Origin: a virus
Length of the DNA: 47,785 nucleotides
Direction: 5' to 3' (one strand)
IMG/VR virus record: IMGVR_UViG_3300037585_002615
Location: 1-47,785 of that record
Below, in pieces: positions 11,596 to 20,753 of this stretch. Under the pieces are notes generated by a model that searched no databases, was not told the origin of the DNA, and was given only the letters and a program-made list of their open reading frames with translations. The translations under genes and the position numbers were made by a program. The first letter of the stretch is position 1. Every line of letters starts with the position of its first letter.

Positions 11596-11964
11596 ATGGC
11601 AACAAATGCAAACTGGAGTGTTATATTTGAGGATAAAAATATAGTTAAACAAACAGGAGATGCTGCTGGGACTGGCTATATTATTAATGATGACTCTTTT
11701 TGGAATCAGTCTAAATTTTCAAATATTTGGGCCATTCAATATGGAACATCAAATCCAAGTGATACTGTAGAATACAGAGATGGGACCTCTCATTCTAGTT
11801 GGGAAGATGCCGACTTAGGAAATTTTCAAGACTTTATCGATAAATGGGATTCAACTCATTTAATTAACCTTCAATCTAATTGGGATAATAACAATATAGA
11901 TGGTGAAACCGCAGAGGAGAAAATAATTAGATTAGGAGCTCGTCCAGTTTCATACAGTTCTTAA
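11596..11964 (+). CDS. Hypothetical tail-region protein, 122 aa
   Basis: The protein has 122 residues, acidic and aromatic: WSVIFEDKNIVKQTGD, FWNQSKFSNIWAIQYG, WDSTHLINLQSNWDNN. It ends in AEEKIIRLGARPVSYSS. Its place between two fibre genes suggests a fibre component or assembly helper. No family is recognised. A GGAG site ends in the previous gene. Its stop codon touches the hairpin at 11964-11985. Confidence 0.6.
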   Translation: MATNANWSVIFEDKNIVKQTGDAAGTGYIINDDSFWNQSKFSNIWAIQYGTSNPSDTVEYRDGTSHSSWEDADLGNFQDFIDKWDSTHLINLQSNWDNNNIDGETAEEKIIRLGARPVSYSS

Positions 11965-11985
11965 TTCTAATTTTATAATTAGAAT
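11964..11985 (+). promoter_or_regulatory. Hairpin joining the stop codon of one gene to the start of the first collar gene
   Basis: ATTCTAATT (11964-11972) pairs with AATTAGAAT (11977-11985) around a TTAT loop. It begins in the TAA of the upstream gene and ends within the ATG of the collar gene at 11984. No SD is visible, so translation of the collar gene may depend on re-initiation by ribosomes coming from upstream. Confidence 0.5.
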
Positions 11986-12553
11986 GTCAAATTACGAAGC
12001 AACAAAATACGATTTCAGTGCAGCAAACCTTACAGGTATTGAGGGGATTCCTTCGGCAACTATTGTGCCCTGGACATCTGCTTCTGTTCCCGCTGGATTT
12101 TTAGAATGTAATGGTGCAGCAGTTTCAAGATCAACCTACGCTGCATTATTTGCAATTATAGGTACAACCTATGGAGCAGGTAATGGTTCATCTACTTTTA
12201 ACGTTCCAGATTTACAAGATAATGCAGCCATGGGTAAATCAGGAACTAAGGCTTTAGCTTCAACGGGTGGTGCAAACACAGTTCAATCAACAGGAAACGT
12301 TGGAGGTTCAACTGCAGCTCATTCTTTAACAACTCCTGAAATGGCACCTCACTCTCACCCAGTTGGAGGTGGAAGTCGAAACACACCGGGAAATTTAAAT
12401 GCTAATCCATCAGGAATAAGCGTTAATCCTGGTAGTACAGGCAGCGCAGGAGGTGGTTCAAGTCATAGTCATAACATGAGTGCAACTTTTACAGGTGATG
12501 CAACTTCTGTTGTTCAGTCTTATTTAACTTTAATATATATTATAAAAACGTAG
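11984..12553 (+). CDS. Phage tail collar-domain protein, copy 1
   Basis: The protein has 189 residues. GFLECNGAAVSRSTYAALFA (38-57) and STFNVPDLQDNAAMGK (70-85) are the collar-domain signature, as in T4 gp12 and phage Mtd/short-fibre tips. HSH motifs at 123-125 and 161-163 flank a Gly/Ser/Asn-rich stretch that differs between the three copies. In T4 fibre tips such HxH motifs bind metal and form the receptor-binding end; that role here is inference. The start is inside a hairpin and lacks an SD. Confidence 0.85.
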   Translation: MSNYEATKYDFSAANLTGIEGIPSATIVPWTSASVPAGFLECNGAAVSRSTYAALFAIIGTTYGAGNGSSTFNVPDLQDNAAMGKSGTKALASTGGANTVQSTGNVGGSTAAHSLTTPEMAPHSHPVGGGSRNTPGNLNANPSGISVNPGSTGSAGGGSSHSHNMSATFTGDATSVVQSYLTLIYIIKT

Positions 12554-12559
12554 GAAAAA

Positions 12560-13132
12560 ATGTCAAATTACGAAGCAACAAAATACGATTACGATGGATC
12601 AAATATAACAGGGATTGAAGGTATTCCTTCAGCAACTATTATTCCATGGTCAGACTCATCTATCCCCTCTGGATTTTTAGAATGTAATGGTGCAGCAGTT
12701 TCAAGGTCTACTTATGCAGCCTTATTTGCAATAGTAGGTACAACTTATGGTGTAGGAGACGGTTCGAGCACTTTTAACGTTCCAGATTTACAGGATAATC
12801 TTCCAATAGGAAAATCAAACAATAAAGCTTTAGGCTCAACAGGTGGTGCAAACACTGTAACATCAACTGGAAACGTTGGCGGTTCGACAGCTAATGCAAC
12901 TTTAAGTAGTCCACAACTAGCTTCGCATAGTCACCCCGCTAATAAAAATTCAGCTCCTGGAGCTCCCTCAAATTCTGAAATGCCTTACAGTGGTGCATAT
13001 AGTAATGATGGGGGTACAGGTGGTGCAGGCGGTGGAGGAGGACATTCTCATAACATGAGTGCAACTTTTGCAGGTGACGCTACCTCTGTTATTCAACCTT
13101 ATTTAACAATAATATATATTATAAAAACTTAG
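12560..13132 (+). CDS. Phage tail collar-domain protein, copy 2
   Basis: The protein has 190 residues and closely resembles copies 1 and 3. Collar signature GFLECNGAAVSRSTYAALFA is at 38-57 and HSH motifs are at 123-125 and 162-164. The segment between them (PANKNSAPGAPSNSEMPYSG and following) is its own and Pro/Ser-rich. It starts six bases after copy 1 with AGGAAAAA upstream. It is likely a tail tip or short-fibre protein that meets the host surface, possibly alternating with its paralogues. Confidence 0.85.
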   Translation: MSNYEATKYDYDGSNITGIEGIPSATIIPWSDSSIPSGFLECNGAAVSRSTYAALFAIVGTTYGVGDGSSTFNVPDLQDNLPIGKSNNKALGSTGGANTVTSTGNVGGSTANATLSSPQLASHSHPANKNSAPGAPSNSEMPYSGAYSNDGGTGGAGGGGGHSHNMSATFAGDATSVIQPYLTIIYIIKT

Positions 13133-13139
13133 GAAAAAA

Positions 13140-13700
13140 ATGGCAAATTACGAAGCAACAAAATACGATTTTTCAGGAGCAAATTTAACAGGTGTTGAAG
13201 GGATTCCTACAGCAACTATTGTTGAATGGTCATCTGCTTCTATTCCCGCTGGATTTTTAGAATGCACTGGCGCAGCAGTTTCTAGATCTACTTATGCAGC
13301 TTTATTTGCAATTGTGGGCACTACCTATGGAGCAGGTGATGGTTCATCTACTTTCAATTTACCTGATATTCAAGACAAAGTAGTTCTAGGTAAATCAAAC
13401 AACAAAGCTTTAGGTTCAACCGGTGGTGCAGCGACAACAACTACTACAGGAAACGTTGGTGGTTCGACAGCTAATGCAACTTTAAGTACATCACAATTAC
13501 CTAGTCACTCTCATCCAGGTCTTGTGCCTTCTGGAAATTTTGCAAGTCCTGCAGGTGGTAGTTTAGGTAGAACAAATGCTAATTCAGGTTCTACCGGAGG
13601 TGGAGGTGGACACTCTCATAATATGAGTGCTACTTTTTCAGGAGATGCAACTTCTATTGTTCAACCCTATTTGTCAGTAGTATATATTATAAAAACTTAA
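13140..13700 (+). CDS. Phage tail collar-domain protein, copy 3
   Basis: The protein has 186 residues. The collar signature GFLECTGAAVSRSTYAALFA has a Thr in place of Asn. HSH motifs are at 123-125 and 158-160, with a shorter variable stretch (PGLVPSGNFASPAGG and following). The last residues IVQPYLSVVYIIKT match the other copies. Its stop codon directly abuts the end of the minus-strand oxygenase gene, with no room for a terminator between the convergent genes. Confidence 0.85.
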   Translation: MANYEATKYDFSGANLTGVEGIPTATIVEWSSASIPAGFLECTGAAVSRSTYAALFAIVGTTYGAGDGSSTFNLPDIQDKVVLGKSNNKALGSTGGAATTTTTGNVGGSTANATLSTSQLPSHSHPGLVPSGNFASPAGGSLGRTNANSGSTGGGGGHSHNMSATFSGDATSIVQPYLSVVYIIKT

Positions 13701-14297
13701 TTATCTTAACAACATCCAGGAAGTTAATAAATATTTTTTACCAGATAGAGGTGAATTTCCTCTATGAACATATGGAAATCCAGCGGGCCAAATAACTATT
13801 CTACCTGTTTTGGGTTTTATCCTTTTTGAAAAATGTAAAAATTCTGTTTCCCCACCTTCTTCAACATCATTTAAATAAATAGAAAAAACAAAAGCTCTTG
13901 GTTCATTATCAAATCCTTTATTATGCTCTATATGCCAAATATGATAACCCTCTGTAGGTAATGTTTTTTGAATTTTTAAAGACGTAAAATGAAAAGGAAC
14001 TCCATAAGCATCACCTGCTCCAGTGTTTTCTATATAATGTTTAAAGGCCATTTCAAAATTAACTATTATAGATTTTAAATCTTCATACCATATATCTAAA
14101 TTATTAGAGGCTGCAAAAAATTGTTGATCTTGTTTTTGTAATACTGATACTTTTTCAAAACCCATTCTGTTAACTGTATTATTAAACTTATCTTGATTGT
14201 CATATAGTTTAATTGCGTTATTACATTCTTTTGCTGTTATATAATTATCATAAATACCTATGAAATTTTCTATTTTAACTGTTTTTTCTTTTATCAT
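13701..14297 (-). CDS. 2-oxoglutarate/Fe(II)-dependent oxygenase, prolyl 4-hydroxylase type (HxE variant)
   Basis: The protein has 198 residues. GYHIWHIEHN (117-126) is the first metal-binding block, with H122 and E124 instead of the usual HxD. The strand FSIYLNDVEEGGETEF (138-153) and YVHRGN (176-181, distal H178) follow. The 2-oxoglutarate-binding basic residue would be K187 or K188. The fold is prolyl-hydroxylase-like. The HxE variant is known in some active oxygenases, so activity is possible. It is the last gene of a four-gene minus-strand run. Confidence 0.82.
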   Translation of the reverse strand: MIKEKTVKIENFIGIYDNYITAKECNNAIKLYDNQDKFNNTVNRMGFEKVSVLQKQDQQFFAASNNLDIWYEDLKSIIVNFEMAFKHYIENTGAGDAYGVPFHFTSLKIQKTLPTEGYHIWHIEHNKGFDNEPRAFVFSIYLNDVEEGGETEFLHFSKRIKPKTGRIVIWPAGFPYVHRGNSPLSGKKYLLTSWMLLR

Positions 14298-14897
14298 TTA
14301 ATATTTTAATTTTTTTATAATTTCTTTGTCTTCAAAACTATATACTTGATTTGTTGTTTTAAGAATCTCATCATTTTTATGGTGAGGAAATAATCCATTT
14401 TTATCCACATAGTGTAAAAATAATTGAGCTAATGCTTCTCCTTTATTAAATCCGAATCTTGAATGTTTGTCTTCTATTCCTAAGTAAATAAGTCCTTCAC
14501 CTGGTTCTATTTCAATTTTTTTATTATTTATAACCATTGGCCAATTTTTTGTTTTATAAATATTAACAGTTACACTAATTTCACATGCAGGTCTGTCTTT
14601 ATGGGCTTTTAAAACAGCTCCGTAAGGATACCATCTCCAATAAGCATAGGTAGGATATAGTTTTAATCCGGTTTCTTTTTCCATTAATGAAAGTTTTGAT
14701 TTTAAAATAACTTCCATAAAATCATCATGTTTATAATCAAGACAATAAGGAGCTACAGAAAAATCGTTGTTGAAAATATTAGCCGAGGATAATTTATCTA
14801 ATTTGTGTATTACATATTTTTGTGATAAATTTAATTCTTCTTCATTTAAGAAATTTTTAATTAATTTATATCTGTAATCTTTTCTTATACAAGCCAT
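14298..14897 (-). CDS. 2-oxoglutarate/Fe(II)-dependent oxygenase-like protein
   Basis: The protein has 199 residues. WRWYPYGAVLKAHKDRPACE (87-106) carries an HxD motif (H99, D101). EISVTVNIYKT is the next strand, and DKHSRFGFNKGEALAQLFLH (143-162) holds the likely distal His (H145). This arrangement fits a phage 2OG-Fe(II) oxygenase family distinct from the neighbours. The substrate is unknown. It overlaps the upstream gene by 13 bases, and its stop codon touches the start of the next gene, so the three oxygenases are surely one transcript. Confidence 0.75.
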   Translation of the reverse strand: MACIRKDYRYKLIKNFLNEEELNLSQKYVIHKLDKLSSANIFNNDFSVAPYCLDYKHDDFMEVILKSKLSLMEKETGLKLYPTYAYWRWYPYGAVLKAHKDRPACEISVTVNIYKTKNWPMVINNKKIEIEPGEGLIYLGIEDKHSRFGFNKGEALAQLFLHYVDKNGLFPHHKNDEILKTTNQVYSFEDKEIIKKLKY

Positions 14898-15439
14898 GCT
14901 ATAATACTATATCTTTTTCCTTTTGTGATAGGTTCTATTTTATGTGGATAAAAAAAATTTGAAGGCCAAATAACAACACTTCCTGTTTTAAGAGGTATTC
15001 TTTTAGTCTCATTAAAAAACTGATCTGAAAAAAGTAAATCTCCTCCTTCATAATTTTCATTCAAATTTATAATGATACTAATATTTCTATAAGTTGAATC
15101 TGAAGAGTCTACGTGATAATCATACCTACCTCCTACATTATATTTCAATATATCCACTTGACTTACAACGTTCGATATCAATCTAGGAAATCTATATTTA
15201 TAATGGCTGTAGAAATTTTTAATTTGATTATTTATTAATTGAAAATAAATCTTATCTCCTACATTTGTATCTCTTAAAATATGTCCATTTACTCTTCTAT
15301 AATCTTGACTGCCGCCAGCAGTAGGTAGTTTACCTTTACAAACTTTATTAGAATAATTTATTACCATTTGACAAAATTTTTTATCAACGATATTGTGTAA
15401 TACCATTATTCCATCTTCAATTTTCATTTTTTCTTTCAT
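14885..15439 (-). CDS. 2-oxoglutarate/Fe(II)-dependent oxygenase (canonical triad)
   Basis: The protein has 184 residues. YDYHVDSSDSTYRNISIIIN (106-125) holds H109 and D111. NYEGGDLLF, GSVVIWPSNFFYPHKIEP (distal H166) and KGKRYSIIAWL (R176) complete a normal prolyl-hydroxylase-like active site. This is the best preserved of the three oxygenases. A sigma-70-like promoter lies just upstream (15449-15478), giving almost no leader. An in-frame ATG at codon 5, with an AAAGAAA site ahead, could be the true start. Confidence 0.85.
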   Translation of the reverse strand: MKEKMKIEDGIMVLHNIVDKKFCQMVINYSNKVCKGKLPTAGGSQDYRRVNGHILRDTNVGDKIYFQLINNQIKNFYSHYKYRFPRLISNVVSQVDILKYNVGGRYDYHVDSSDSTYRNISIIINLNENYEGGDLLFSDQFFNETKRIPLKTGSVVIWPSNFFYPHKIEPITKGKRYSIIAWLV

Positions 15440-15448
15440 TTAATATAA

Positions 15449-15478
15449 CATATAACATATTGTTTAATATTTTGTCAA
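15449..15478 (-). promoter_or_regulatory. Sigma-70-like promoter for the minus-strand oxygenases
   Basis: On the minus strand a perfect TTGACA (15473-15478) is followed after 18 bases by TATATG (15449-15454). The predicted transcript start is within a few bases of the first ATG at 15439, so the message would be nearly leaderless or start at codon 5. Confidence 0.5.
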
Positions 15479-15488
15479 ACAGAATGTT

Positions 15489-16115
15489 TTAAAAATTAGA
15501 CTTTACTTCTAAAGGTCTATATTTTTTAATTAGTTTATAATTAATATCCGCACATACAGGTTCTTTTTTTGTATCCAATAAATATAAACCGCAATTTAAA
15601 AGTTTGGGGTGATCTAAAGAGGCTCCAGAATTTATTACAACATCAAATTTTTTATCTTTAAAATCTGTTTCTATTAAATTAATTTGCTTATTAAATTTTT
15701 TATTAATCTTTTTTAAAAAATTATTATATGAATCCATTTTAACCCCATGAGCTAAGGTATCATAATTAAAACACTTAATACCAATCTTATCTAAAAAAAC
15801 AGATAAAATTCCAAAACCACAACCATTGTCTATTATATTTTTATCTTTAAAAAAATTAATATTTTTTAATACATAGTCTAAGATCGCGTAATTTGGGGGG
15901 TATAGTAATTTATTAAAATACAAAACATCGTCTTTAATAATTTTATCTTTTTCCCATCTTCCTTTAAATAAACCTGGATCGTTAAAATAGTTATTAAATA
16001 ATTCTCCTACATGATCTACATATATATCAGACACTAAATTTAACCATTCTTTGTTAAAAGAATTTTTTAATAGATTAAAGTCTATTTCTGCATATATTTC
16101 TTTCTTTTCATGCAT
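15489..16115 (-). CDS. Class I SAM-dependent methyltransferase-like protein
   Basis: The protein has 208 residues. NIIDNGCGFGILSVFLDKIG (93-112) is the SAM-binding loop. FDVVINSGASLDHPKLL (about 158-174) fits the region after motif IV. The first 90 residues are helical and aromatic with no match I recognise. The target (protein, small molecule or sugar) cannot be told. It is very AT-rich and opens the minus-strand cassette, 24 bases from the divergent tail gene at 16140. Confidence 0.75.
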   Translation of the reverse strand: MHEKKEIYAEIDFNLLKNSFNKEWLNLVSDIYVDHVGELFNNYFNDPGLFKGRWEKDKIIKDDVLYFNKLLYPPNYAILDYVLKNINFFKDKNIIDNGCGFGILSVFLDKIGIKCFNYDTLAHGVKMDSYNNFLKKINKKFNKQINLIETDFKDKKFDVVINSGASLDHPKLLNCGLYLLDTKKEPVCADINYKLIKKYRPLEVKSNF

Positions 16116-16139: not shown

Positions 16140-18056
16140 ATGGCCTTAAAAAAAGTAAATTTTGCAGCTGGTTTTAATAAACAAAGCGTACCTTCCGCTC
16201 TTCCAGGACAATGGGTAGATGGAGATTTTGTGCGTTTTAGATATACCGCGCCAGAAAAAATAGGAGGTTGGGAACAACTTACTGTGGCTCAAGAAACTTT
16301 ACCTGGCGCAGCTAGAGCACAGATTTCTTTTACTTCATTAGCAGGAGAACGCTATGCTGCTATTGGAACTTCTCAAGGTTTATTTTTATATTATGGTAAT
16401 GCTTTTTTTGATATTACTCCCTTAGATACAGCTATAACAGGATGTACCTTAACAACTGTTAATGGATCAAATGTATTACAAGTTAATAAAGGATCACATG
16501 GTCTAAAAGTCGGAAGATATGTAACCTTGTCTTCTGTGACTGTTACAGGCGCATCAGACTATACCACAGCTGAATTAGAAAAAGTTTATGAAATATTAAC
16601 TGTTCCTGATGTAGATAAGTTTACAGTTCAAGCTGTAAGAAATGAAGGAGGATCTGGCATGACTGCAGCAGGAGCTGCAACTGTTAATCCTTATATTATA
16701 GTTGGACCAACAATTCAGACAGCAGGATATGGTTGGGGAACATCTTCTTGGGGAGATGAGACTTGGGGCACTGAAAGATCTACAGGTAGCGTAACTTTAG
16801 ATCCAGGAAACTGGAGTCTTGATAATTTTGGTGAAGTATTAATTGCAACTATTTTTGATGGTAAAACTTTTACGTGGGATGCTGGAGCGTCTAATGCTAG
16901 AACTGTAAGAGCCTCTACTTCTACCAGTGGATTTGCAACCACTAACAATCCAACAGCTACTCGATTTACATTAGTTTCAGATAGAGATAGACACTTATTT
17001 CATTTTGGAACTGAGACAACTATTGGTAATTCTGCATCTCAAGATCCTATGTTTGTAAGATTCTCAAACCAAGAAGATTTAAATACTTATTTACCTACTG
17101 CTACTAATACTGCGGGTACTTTTAGATTAGATACGGGTAATCAAATAAGAGCAGCTTTACAGGGTAAAGATTATGTTTTTGTATTAACAGACCTTGCAGC
17201 TTATGCGATTCAATTTGTAGGCCCACCTTTTACGTTCAGTGTTAGACAAGTTGGTACTAACTGTGGTTGTATAGGACAGCACGCCGCTTCTTATGTTAAT
17301 GGCGCAGTGTATTGGATGTCTAATGAAGGCGGGTTTTTTATGTACGATGGTACAGTAAAAGCTCTTCCATGTTTAGTTGAAGACTTTGTATTCACTACTC
17401 AAAATGGAAACTTAGGTCTTAATTTTGATTCCGCTGATGTAGTTTTTTCTTCTCCTAATTCTTTATATACTGAAGTAAATTGGTTTTATCCAAAATCAGG
17501 ATCGGAACAAATTGATAGATGCGTAACATATAATTACCAAGAAAATGTTTGGACCACTTCTTCTCTTGATAGAACCACTTATCAAGATCAAGGTGTATTT
17601 AATAACCCTTACGCAACCGATTACGAAACTACAGGTACTCCTGTTTTTTCAAGTATTTTAGGAATTACTAATTTATATGGTGCAAGTATGTATTATGCTC
17701 ATGAAACAGGAACAGATCAAGTCAATAGTTCGGGCAGAACTTCAATTAATGCTTTTATAAGATCTGGAGATTTTGATATTGATGATGGTGAATTATTTAT
17801 GTCTATGAGAAGATTTATGCCTGACTATAAATTTTTAGTAGGTAATTCTAAAGTAACTTTATTTATATCCGATTATCCATCAGATACTCAAACAGGTTCC
17901 CCTTTAGGTCCCTTTACAATAACCAGCACTACTGATAAAGTAGACACTAGAGCAAGAGGAAGATTACTATCATTAAAAGTTGAAAACGATGCTGCGGGTG
18001 AAACTTGGCGTTATGGTAGTTTTAGAATGGATGCACAACCAGACGGGAGAAGATAA
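16140..18056 (+). CDS. Large tail protein, probable nozzle (T7 gp12 / P22 gp10-like)
   Basis: The protein has 638 residues. LPGQWVDGDFVRFRYTAPEK and GWEQL near the start, YAAIGTSQGLFLYY, then KDYVFVLTDLAAYAIQFVG, FSVRQVGTNCGCIG and VYWMSNEGGFFMYDG form the blades of a beta-propeller like those of podovirus nozzle (tail tubular B) proteins. YGWGTSSWGDETWG is a Trp-rich insertion. A short-tailed phage would need this protein below the adaptor ring. It is separated from the other tail genes by the minus-strand cassette. Confidence 0.72.
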   Translation: MALKKVNFAAGFNKQSVPSALPGQWVDGDFVRFRYTAPEKIGGWEQLTVAQETLPGAARAQISFTSLAGERYAAIGTSQGLFLYYGNAFFDITPLDTAITGCTLTTVNGSNVLQVNKGSHGLKVGRYVTLSSVTVTGASDYTTAELEKVYEILTVPDVDKFTVQAVRNEGGSGMTAAGAATVNPYIIVGPTIQTAGYGWGTSSWGDETWGTERSTGSVTLDPGNWSLDNFGEVLIATIFDGKTFTWDAGASNARTVRASTSTSGFATTNNPTATRFTLVSDRDRHLFHFGTETTIGNSASQDPMFVRFSNQEDLNTYLPTATNTAGTFRLDTGNQIRAALQGKDYVFVLTDLAAYAIQFVGPPFTFSVRQVGTNCGCIGQHAASYVNGAVYWMSNEGGFFMYDGTVKALPCLVEDFVFTTQNGNLGLNFDSADVVFSSPNSLYTEVNWFYPKSGSEQIDRCVTYNYQENVWTTSSLDRTTYQDQGVFNNPYATDYETTGTPVFSSILGITNLYGASMYYAHETGTDQVNSSGRTSINAFIRSGDFDIDDGELFMSMRRFMPDYKFLVGNSKVTLFISDYPSDTQTGSPLGPFTITSTTDKVDTRARGRLLSLKVENDAAGETWRYGSFRMDAQPDGRR

Positions 18057-18740: not shown

Positions 18741-18918
18741 TATACATAAAATAGATTGCACAACGGTAACAATTTATAGAAACACAAAAACAGGCGAAAC
18801 GTCTAAAGAGAAAGTAGAGGGTCCTGACATTGTAACAGATATTACAGTTCACGTCTCACCGAAAGGATTGGATGTTTTCCAGAAAGTTATGAATGAAAAT
18901 AAGAAACCAAAGCCCTAA
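18727..18918 (+). CDS. Hypothetical protein, 63 aa
   Basis: The protein has 63 residues with alternating charged strands: CTTVTIYRNTKTGETSKEK, IVTDITVHVSPKGLDVFQK. It overlaps the next gene by 26 bases. It is unknown, probably a small beta protein made with its neighbours. Confidence 0.5.
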   Translation: MKTDNIHKIDCTTVTIYRNTKTGETSKEKVEGPDIVTDITVHVSPKGLDVFQKVMNENKKPKP

Positions 18919-19840
18919 AGGTGGAACTGAATTACAATTAGGTTTTCTACATCAATACGTAGATAAAAATTTATTAGATCAAGTACAAATTTGTACTAGC
19001 GTACCGGGTAAAGTACCTTTAGATCCTAATAAACTTAATGTACTTTGGCAAAAAAATTCTTACGATCAACCTAATTTATATCCGTGGTTTAAAAATAAAG
19101 CTAATCATCACAAATATGATTGGTATGTTTTTAATTCTCATTGGAATTATGAAAAATTTAGAATGATGTTTGGTATCCCTACTGAAAAATGTGTGGTTAT
19201 TAAAAATGGAGTTGAAAAAATAAAACAATCTCCACATTATGAAAAAGGTAAACCTATTAGAATAATTCATCAGAACACACCCTGGAGAGGATTATCTGTT
19301 TTACTTGGTGCAATGCAATTAATTAAAAACCCATTAATTACATTAGATGTTTATTCTTCATGTGAGGTATATGGTAAAGAGTTCCATGAACAAAATGATT
19401 ATAATTATAAAGCATTATATGACCAAGCTGAGTCTTTATCCAATGTAAATTACATTGGATATAAACCCAACGAATACATTAGAGAACATTTACCGGATTA
19501 TAATATGTATGCTTATCCTAGTATTTTTGAAGAGACTTCTTGTATTTCTTTATTAGAAGCAATGTCTGCGGGACTGTATAGTATTGTAACCGATTATGGA
19601 GCTTTGTTTGAAACAGGAGCAGAGTTTCCAATGTATATTCCTTATGACAGTAATTACAAAGCATTAGCAGAAAAGTTTGCCTATGGTATTGCTGCCGCTG
19701 CAGAAACTTTACACGAGCCACAAATACATAGTCATTTAACCACTCAAGCTAATTACACTCAGATATATTATTCTTGGCCTAAACAAGCATCTGCGTGGAC
19801 AACATTTTTAAAAGGAGCTCTTAATGCCAAAGCCAAATGA
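18893..19840 (+). CDS. Glycosyltransferase, GT-B fold (GT4-like)
   Basis: The protein has 315 residues. The N-terminal half has KGGTELQLGFLHQYV and a Lys/aromatic acceptor region. The C-terminal half has GKPIRIIHQNTPWRGLSVLL (about 120-140), NVNYIGYKPNEYI, and FEETSCISLLEAMSAGLY, the E-x7-E nucleotide-sugar motif of GT4 enzymes. It probably moves a sugar onto a phage protein or DNA base, or alters host surface glycans; the acceptor is not visible. It is shorter than most GT4 enzymes (about 350-400). It overlaps the next glycosyltransferase by 17 bases. Confidence 0.82.
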   Translation: MKIRNQSPKGGTELQLGFLHQYVDKNLLDQVQICTSVPGKVPLDPNKLNVLWQKNSYDQPNLYPWFKNKANHHKYDWYVFNSHWNYEKFRMMFGIPTEKCVVIKNGVEKIKQSPHYEKGKPIRIIHQNTPWRGLSVLLGAMQLIKNPLITLDVYSSCEVYGKEFHEQNDYNYKALYDQAESLSNVNYIGYKPNEYIREHLPDYNMYAYPSIFEETSCISLLEAMSAGLYSIVTDYGALFETGAEFPMYIPYDSNYKALAEKFAYGIAAAAETLHEPQIHSHLTTQANYTQIYYSWPKQASAWTTFLKGALNAKAK

Positions 19841-20753
19841 ACCCATATGGTTTAACGTGGATAAAACCGAAACAGCAAATGATGATACCTATCAAACAAT
19901 TAAAACCAATAAAATAGAAAATAAAATGGTAGAAATAAATTTAGGTACTTCACCTCACAAGATAATGGTATGCACTCCTTGTCATAGTGATGTTAGTATG
20001 CATTACTGTCAAGCTGTGTTAAAGTTTCAAATGGCGTGTTCTAAAGAAGGAATACAATGTAGTTTTACATTACTTAAATCATCGTTAGTTACACAAGGTA
20101 GAAATTTATGTGTAGCAGAATTTTTAAATCACGAAGATAAATATACTCATTTATTGTTTATAGACTCTGACATTGATTTTGATCACGAGCCTATTTTTAA
20201 GATGTTAGAGTTTGATAAAGACATAATTAGCTTACCCTATCCTATGAAACTTTTAAGTTGGGATAAAATATGGCGAAGACTTAACACTAAAGAAGATGCT
20301 ATCAGTAATGAAAAAGATTTGGCTACAGCAGGTTTTACTTATCCTGTTAAAGTAGAGAACCCTAATTCAATAACCGTGGACAAAGGATTAATGGAGCTTA
20401 CTCATGCCCCAACTGGATGTATGTTGATTAAAAGAAATGTATTTGAAAAAATGATTAAAGAATACCCTCATTTGGAAATATATCAGCCTACTAATATTAA
20501 TGGTAAAGAGGTTAAAAAAGATAATATGTACAATTTATTTGACACATTACATGACCCTAAAACTAAAAGATATTTTGGAGAAGACTTTGGATTCTGTCAA
20601 AGATGGACGGATATAGGTGGTAAGGTGTACGCTTACATAGATGCTCCTATAACTCACGTTGGAGAGTATTGTTATAAAGGTCGATTTAGAGATGATTTAT
20701 GGCAAGCAGGAAGACCTGTCAAATCTGTTGACGAGTCTAAAAAAATCAAATAA
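19824..20753 (+). CDS. Glycosyltransferase, GT-A fold with DxD motif
   Basis: The protein has 309 residues. MVCTPCHSDVSMHYCQAVLK (48-67) opens the nucleotide-sugar domain, QGRNLCVAEFL (91-101) follows, and FIDSDIDFD (112-120) is the DxD metal site. HAPTGCMLIKRNVFEKMIK and RYFGEDFGFCQRWTDIGG match the acceptor half. AAGGAG precedes the ATG. Together with the preceding GT-B enzyme this makes a two-step sugar addition plausible. Proteins of this type are common in marine phages and are usually of unknown target. Confidence 0.82.
   Translation: MPKPNEPIWFNVDKTETANDDTYQTIKTNKIENKMVEINLGTSPHKIMVCTPCHSDVSMHYCQAVLKFQMACSKEGIQCSFTLLKSSLVTQGRNLCVAEFLNHEDKYTHLLFIDSDIDFDHEPIFKMLEFDKDIISLPYPMKLLSWDKIWRRLNTKEDAISNEKDLATAGFTYPVKVENPNSITVDKGLMELTHAPTGCMLIKRNVFEKMIKEYPHLEIYQPTNINGKEVKKDNMYNLFDTLHDPKTKRYFGEDFGFCQRWTDIGGKVYAYIDAPITHVGEYCYKGRFRDDLWQAGRPVKSVDESKKIK

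Follow-up and report, generated by a model that had tools for sequence, protein, structure and literature searches.

Why do four enzyme genes, all on the minus strand, interrupt the plus-strand tail genes of a pelagiphage, and might their products act on the tail tip beside which they are encoded? The question arises from the window, by which we mean the whole stretch of DNA analysed here, a complete IMG/VR virus record of 47,785 bases. Its tail/head ‘stabilisation’ structural protein (16140..18056, plus strand; phrog_3287, E = 1.6e-81) is 76% identical to gp75 of Pelagibacter phage HTVC027P and 54% identical to the protein of HTVC023P, and we therefore assign the window to the HTVC023P-type pelagiphages.

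The cassette and its surroundings

The stabilisation gene bounds on the right what we refer to as the slot, a region that the tail-tip genes bound on the left, and it served as the marker for comparing relatives. To the left lie three plus-strand copies of a collar-type tail-tip protein (11984..12553, 12560..13132 and 13140..13700; PF07484 with E = 1.7e-22, 1.4e-21 and 2e-20), which are the proposed substrates of the enzymes. They are preceded by a plus-strand gene for a 122-aa protein of unknown function (g11596, 11596..11964) that accompanies collar genes and matched no Pfam or PHROG family.

Between the end of the third collar gene at 13700 and the start of the stabilisation gene at 16140, four packed minus-strand open reading frames lie exactly at 13701-16115, as the earlier note on this DNA had read them. 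Their order is MT (15489..16115, 208 aa), ox3 (14885..15439, 184 aa), ox2 (14298..14897, 199 aa) and ox1 (13701..14297, 198 aa), with 49 bp between MT and ox3, a 13-bp overlap of ox3 and ox2, and 0 bp between ox2 and ox1. The AT-richness remarked on earlier is pronounced: GC content is 24.9% in the cassette against 35.0% in the rest of the window, and no other 2415-bp stretch of the window falls below 30.5%. Compared with relatives, all four genes have dN/dS < 1 and thus are not decaying. A search for promoter or terminator signals of the cassette came up empty (22 promoter-like sites, 19.9 expected).

Two prolyl-hydroxylase-like oxygenases

The metal motifs recognised from the letters alone hold for all three oxygenases (HxE in ox1, HxD in ox2 and ox3, each with a distal His), as does the SAM loop of the fourth gene. 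The accompanying remark that the oxygenases share little similarity is true of ox2 only. ox1 and ox3 are recognisably homologous, with 33% identity over 84 aa (E = 1e-12), a common PHROG and a common Pfam family (PF13640, E = 8e-10 for ox1 and 9e-16 for ox3).

The only solved structures matched by the ox1 family profile are prolyl 4-hydroxylases (5hv0, 3itq, 5c5t), and the top PDB match of the ox1 AF2 model (pLDDT 83) is the PBCV-1 prolyl hydroxylase 5c5t (E = 7e-10). In an alignment of 39 relatives, H119, W121, H122 and E124 are invariant and H178 and K188 are present in at least 90%. K188 provides a basic residue near the C-terminal strand, a place taken by Arg in the ox3 sequence of the window. 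Typical prolyl 4-hydroxylases (P4Hs) have an HxD metal motif. ox1 thus shares fold and metal-site class with the PBCV-1 and Pseudomonas putida enzymes (5c5t, 4iw3) but differs from typical P4Hs in having HxE instead. For ox3, the solved structures matched by sequence are the PKHD hydroxylase PiuC and prolyl 3-hydroxylase 1. The double-stranded beta-helix fold is assigned from models for ox1 and ox2, and from the Pfam and PDB sequence matches for ox3. Among cassette oxygenases of the ox1/ox3 type, 305 of 354 contain the HxD/E...H triad, compared with 136 of 354 shuffled sequences. We infer that ox1 and ox3 are homologous, prolyl-hydroxylase-like (ox1 P4H-like, ox3 PKHD/prolyl-3-hydroxylase-like) members of the 2OG-Fe(II) oxygenase superfamily, with predicted catalytic activity. 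The name DNA endonuclease V, attached to phrog_2297 in related clusters, is doubtful: ox3 itself matches phrog_2297, and the ox3 profile also picks out phrog_2297-type genes in Mosig and S-SM1.

Could such an enzyme instead modify a host protein, for example EF-Tu as solved for the P. putida P4H, and so tune translation during infection? Among the folds closest to the predicted ox1 model is indeed that of the P. putida P4H in complex with EF-Tu (4iw3), and chromosomal relatives of ox1 in Massilia (about 30% identity) sit among housekeeping-type neighbours. However, a host target leaves unexplained both the restriction of ox1 to collar-type phages, described below, and the presence of several divergent oxygenases per phage, and we consider it very unlikely. 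None of the bacterial ox1 relatives checked, in Massilia and others, adjoins collar genes. The genome contigs that do bear collar genes look like phage contigs.

The ‘ferrochelatase’ family and the methyltransferase

ox2 belongs to phrog_2954 (E = 1.5e-39), a family that carries the name ‘ferrochelatase’ in phage records. It matches no Pfam family and no PDB sequence at E ≤ 1. Its AF2 model is confident (pLDDT 93.6), and the PDB neighbours of the model are PHD2, P4H, PiuC and other 2OG enzymes (Z about 16). H99, D101, H145, R147, Q158 and H162 are invariant in 41 ox2 sequences; a basic residue at the usual 2OG-binding spacing is missing, and R88, R102 and R147 are invariant instead. A ferrochelatase or haem function is rejected, given the absence of a family match and a confident model with a 2OG oxygenase fold. 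Based on the modelled fold and the invariant HxD...H triad, we conclude that ox2 is a divergent 2OG oxygenase, with predicted catalysis, and that the ferrochelatase name is wrong. This correction appears to be new. The PHROG family phrog_3531 fuses an ox2-like with an ox3-like domain in a single protein, which suggests that ox2 and ox3 work together.

By its sequence, MT is a class I SAM-dependent methyltransferase. It matches Methyltransf_23 (E = 8e-6, just under the cut-off) and PrmA (E = 5e-5; 23.4 bits against a cut-off of 22), and its motif I, DNGCGFG, is invariant in 7 relatives. IMG/VR viral contigs contain 16 MT loci, nearly all of those with readable context in the same slot, and the annotated phage collection contains no relatives. 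MT is thus best described as a putative accessory confined to close relatives.

A variable slot with a constant pair

How constant is this arrangement among relatives? We counted 58 slots, each with a readable tip gene and a distinct stabilisation protein. They hold 0-13 genes, with 1-8 in collar-type phages and up to 13 in those with Gly-rich tips, and most of the genes are oxygenases. Others, in the slots or between slot genes, encode Trp halogenases, NodU-type carbamoyltransferases, JmjC/cupin proteins, TylF-type and other methyltransferases, and sulfotransferase-like proteins. Against this turnover, the association with tip type is sharp. Where the tip is collar-type, a minus-strand cassette is present in all 28 slots and ox1 in 27, the exception being slot L077; where the tip is Gly-rich or of another kind, neither the minus-strand cassette nor ox1 occurs in any of 30 slots. 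The co-occurrence with collar-type genes that the earlier note proposed to check is borne out for a minus-strand cassette and for ox1. HTVC027P (host HTCC1062) is a case in point: its slot holds ox1 (78% identity) and two other oxygenases on the minus strand, and its gp70 and gp71 correspond to the collar protein and g11596. The oxygenases recognised in the window, HTVC027P and HTVC023P all lie in or beside the slot, with about 93-95% of the latter two genomes searched.

A separate ox1-seeded search, combined with other loci, yielded 97 distinct ox1 genes, of which 91 could be tested, having an opposite-strand gene on the same contig. All 91 converge on collar/g11596, 88 directly and 3 past one extra gene. 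Association by both measures provides a genetic tie between the enzymes and the adjacent collar proteins, and to that extent the suggestion that the former serve the latter stands. The idea of a fixed, four-gene, multi-step pathway does not. MT and single oxygenases are separable from the rest, MT occurring only in close relatives, and ox1 is the sole cassette gene in five distinct collar-type slots. The earlier note had named independent occurrence of the genes in relatives as grounds for refutation, and the four genes as one unit fail on those grounds; conservation applies to the slot and to the pairing of ox1 with collar genes. We also rejected a glycosyltransferase pair as a part of the system, as its genes are found beyond the slot and occur irrespective of oxygenases.

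Two main rivals to an action on the tail tip need to be weighed: that the slot is a recombination hot spot filled with cargo, and that the genes serve host metabolism. In the first case, switching of the tip would swap the whole region and bring along hitchhikers of mixed function with no common substrate. The tip genes adjoin the cassette, and recombinational co-inheritance therefore explains part of the association. The AT-rich composition, strong turnover and varied enzyme classes are as expected of such cargo, and independent tip switches are few. The stabilisation-protein tree implies at least 6 changes of tip type, and 4 independent pairs rest on well supported branches; strand follows tip type in 4 of 4 and ox1 in 3.8 on average, four pairs being too few for p < 0.05. 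However, in about 8 of 27 slots ox1 is kept despite intervening genes toward the tip, while the remaining cassette has turned over, which linkage alone does not predict. Purifying selection and a like arrangement in unrelated myoviruses also argue against mere hitchhiking, which we therefore regard as an unlikely explanation, albeit one to be taken seriously. The linkage of the oxygenase cassette to tip type appears to be new.

Similar clusters in other marine phages

Outside the HTVC023P group, we hand-picked phages from a tblastn list. In the SAR11 myovirus HTVC008M, six minus-strand genes form a cassette that separates the neck genes from a Gly-rich gene following the fibre genes. Oxygenase clusters also occur beside fibre or Gly-rich genes in HTVC033P, Mosig, S-SM1, Syn10, S-RIM44 and S-SM2, some of them with halogenases, and in S-T4 a fibre gene lies a few genes away from an ox2 homologue. 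Other ox2 homologues are away from tail genes: in the replication module of P-SSM7 and S-CAM22, beside NAD synthetase in ACG-2014f, and in a glycosyltransferase cluster in S-SCSM2R. Tip adjacency of ox2 is therefore common, not universal.

Several of these genes have been described before, and the system is less novel than the earlier note supposed when it named the cassette its best candidate for an undescribed one. Co-located 2OG-Fe(II) oxygenases and ‘ferrochelatases’ of HTVC023P-type pelagiphages (HTVC027P gp72-74, HTVC023P gp65-67), the same phage group and gene families as here, were read as auxiliary metabolic genes (PMC9599517). In that reading the partner is a ferrochelatase; in ours it is an oxygenase, and both the content of the cassette and its strand go with tip type. 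The 2OG oxygenases of cyanomyoviruses (T4-GC 104, 240, 412, 611, 615) were given a role in 2OG/nitrogen status or DNA repair (PMC3037559). They belong to homologous families, and the copies in S-SM1, S-SM2, Syn10 and S-RIM44 lie beside fibre or Gly-rich genes; none of the cyanomyovirus stretches examined has a collar/ox1 pairing. More broadly, studies of abundant ocean viruses count phrog_61 2OG oxygenases and phrog_2954 ‘ferrochelatases’ among the metabolic genes and argue from them that viruses control host metabolism (PMC9599517, PMC11561400). In the literature covered, which was incomplete, we found no publication tying such oxygenases to tail tips.

Are these oxygenases, then, metabolic genes? 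During infection they would change metabolites of the host, or its 2-oxoglutarate/nitrogen or iron status, and the slot would simply tolerate them. This is the published interpretation both for cyanophages, as the 2OG/NtcA model (PMC3037559), and for pelagiphages (PMC9599517, PMC11561400), and the ox2 homologues in replication modules are consistent with it. But the ‘ferrochelatase’ half of the published pair is an oxygenase, the solved structures nearest ox1 are protein hydroxylases, and a metabolic role predicts neither the tie of ox1 to collar tips nor the fast turnover of slot content. We judge it improbable as an account of this locus.

A further possibility is that the enzymes make a small secondary metabolite or decorate the polysaccharide on the host surface. 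Such a proposal exists for the jumbo cyanophage S-SSM6a, in which a cluster of carbamoyltransferases, halogenase, 2OG enzymes and methylases was read as secondary-metabolite or capsule biosynthesis (PMC7824862). Those enzyme classes overlap with the slots of relatives, which share Trp halogenase, NodU-type carbamoyltransferase, TylF-type methyltransferase and sulfotransferase. The cassette of the window, however, consists of oxygenases and one methyltransferase only. Its lack of the halogenase, carbamoyltransferase and HAD phosphatase set led us to reject it as a cluster of the S-SSM6a kind, although single relatives hold a halogenase or a carbamoyltransferase. Moreover, no slot examined encodes a scaffold-building enzyme, the glycosyltransferase pair is independent of the oxygenases, single-oxygenase cassettes exist, and the link to tip type is left unexplained. 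Secondary-metabolite or polysaccharide chemistry thus seems a poor prospect.

A hypervariable tip loop and possible tail-tip tailoring

The collar protein has one hypervariable loop, at about residues 125-150 of copy 3, between HSHP and HSHN motifs. Across 124 collar relatives, the entropy of the loop core is 3.1-3.3 bits, compared with 0.4-1.0 elsewhere, and the loop is enriched in Gly, Asn and Pro (Pro 7.5% versus 4.6% overall, Asn 10.8% versus 7.7%). Loop composition shows no correlation with the presence of individual enzymes after allowing for many tests; the sole small p-value, for loop Glu with MT, stems from four loci, possibly all members of one clade.

So, is the slot a tail-tip tailoring island, with ox1 as a collar-specific hydroxylase and the other enzymes as exchangeable accessories? 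From genomic association, this is the reading we favour over its rivals, and we hold it to be evenly poised between right and wrong. In the slot, HTVC023P-type pelagiphages carry fast-changing, protein-hydroxylase-like 2OG oxygenases, some with other group-transfer enzymes, and collar-type members have them on the minus strand, with ox1 always or nearly always among them. ox1 may hydroxylate the collar protein once it is synthesised, or else the accompanying g11596, which we propose as an alternative substrate or an assembly factor. The target residue would probably be a Pro or Asn in the hypervariable, Gly/Ser/Asn/Pro-containing loop. ox2 and ox3 might hydroxylate other positions or other virion proteins, and MT might add a methyl group to a residue or to a hydroxyl so formed. 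A tip surface altered in this way could then change receptor binding, and with it adsorption, or stability.

Besides the tie of ox1 to collar tips, the position of the recognised oxygenases in or beside the slot and the single hypervariable loop, we count in favour of tailoring that the solved proteins most closely related to ox1 and ox3, and many folds nearest ox2, are peptidyl-prolyl hydroxylases or PKHD enzymes, and that unrelated marine phages such as HTVC008M have a like architecture. Counted against it are the ox2 homologues away from tail genes, the collar slot without ox1, the small number of supported independent tip switches, the share of the association that co-inheritance explains, the loop composition that no enzyme's presence follows, the near-absence of Trp from the tips in halogenase-bearing loci, and the missing basic residue of ox2 at the usual 2OG-binding spacing. 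There is a precedent in principle for phages modifying their own structural proteins, as mycobacteriophages encode glycosylation of virion proteins. That involves sugar transfer by different enzymes, whereas hydroxylation and methylation are proposed here.

Should tail-tip tailoring extend across several marine phage families, hypervariable tip-side enzyme islands would diversify receptor-binding tips by chemistry, on top of sequence hypervariation, and many of the genes called ‘auxiliary metabolic’ in pelagiphages and cyanophages would serve tip maturation. We put this forward as a tentative generalization, more probably wrong than right. The chemistries named for such islands are hydroxylation, methylation, carbamoylation, halogenation and sulfation. 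As regards halogenation, the Gly-rich tips in halogenase-bearing loci contain 0-1 Trp, so halogenases cannot act mainly on tip Trp; a relationship between halogenase presence and the Trp content of Gly-rich tips found no support and was rejected.

If tip tailoring is true, the metabolic reading of phrog_61 and phrog_2954 genes changes, and phages diversify receptor binding chemically in addition to varying the sequence. This can be put to a direct test in HTVC027P, a collar-type relative with ox1 that is in culture.

Database names of the oxygenase families

The phage family annotated as 'ferrochelatase' (phrog_2954, T4-GC 615), which is present in more than 150 phage records and includes ox2 of the window (14298-14897, minus strand) and its phage matches H1-H40, is a 2OG oxygenase as judged by its modelled fold and metal motif. 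Like this label, the name 'DNA endonuclease V' is doubtful, because the genes that carry it in Mosig and S-SM1 (L029 6660-7172, L112 17249-17737) match the profile of ox3, a PF13640 oxygenase.

Tryptophan halogenase homologues lie among or adjoin the oxygenases in five pelagiphage-type contigs (L061, L069, L092, L200 and L211). Tryptophan is nearly absent from the Gly-rich tips of these contigs.

Collar genes and their neighbours

Across 35 complete collar-type slots, from the window (11984-13700, plus strand) and its relatives, the collar gene always occurs in either one or three copies, and tandem copies differ mainly in a hypervariable loop. Oxygenase number correlates weakly with collar copy number (rho 0.35, p 0.04). 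Found alongside the collar genes is g11596 (11596-11964), which encodes 122 aa of no known family and switches position with copy number, following a single copy and usually preceding three.

In one contig (L215), g11596, a collar gene and the PF13640 oxygenase ox1 occur together; its assignment to a single-cell genome of the Pelagibacteraceae is consistent with a SAR11 host. Full-length chromosomal relatives of ox1 (about 30% identity) occur in Massilia and related bacteria (L217-L249), in a conserved neighbourhood of what look like cobalamin adenosyltransferase and glycolate oxidase subunit genes.

A conserved gene pair (18893-20753) lies downstream of the stabilisation gene; one member encodes a glycosyltransferase and the other a protein that is probably GT-A-like (phrog_1574). 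The presence of this pair is independent of both tip type and oxygenases.
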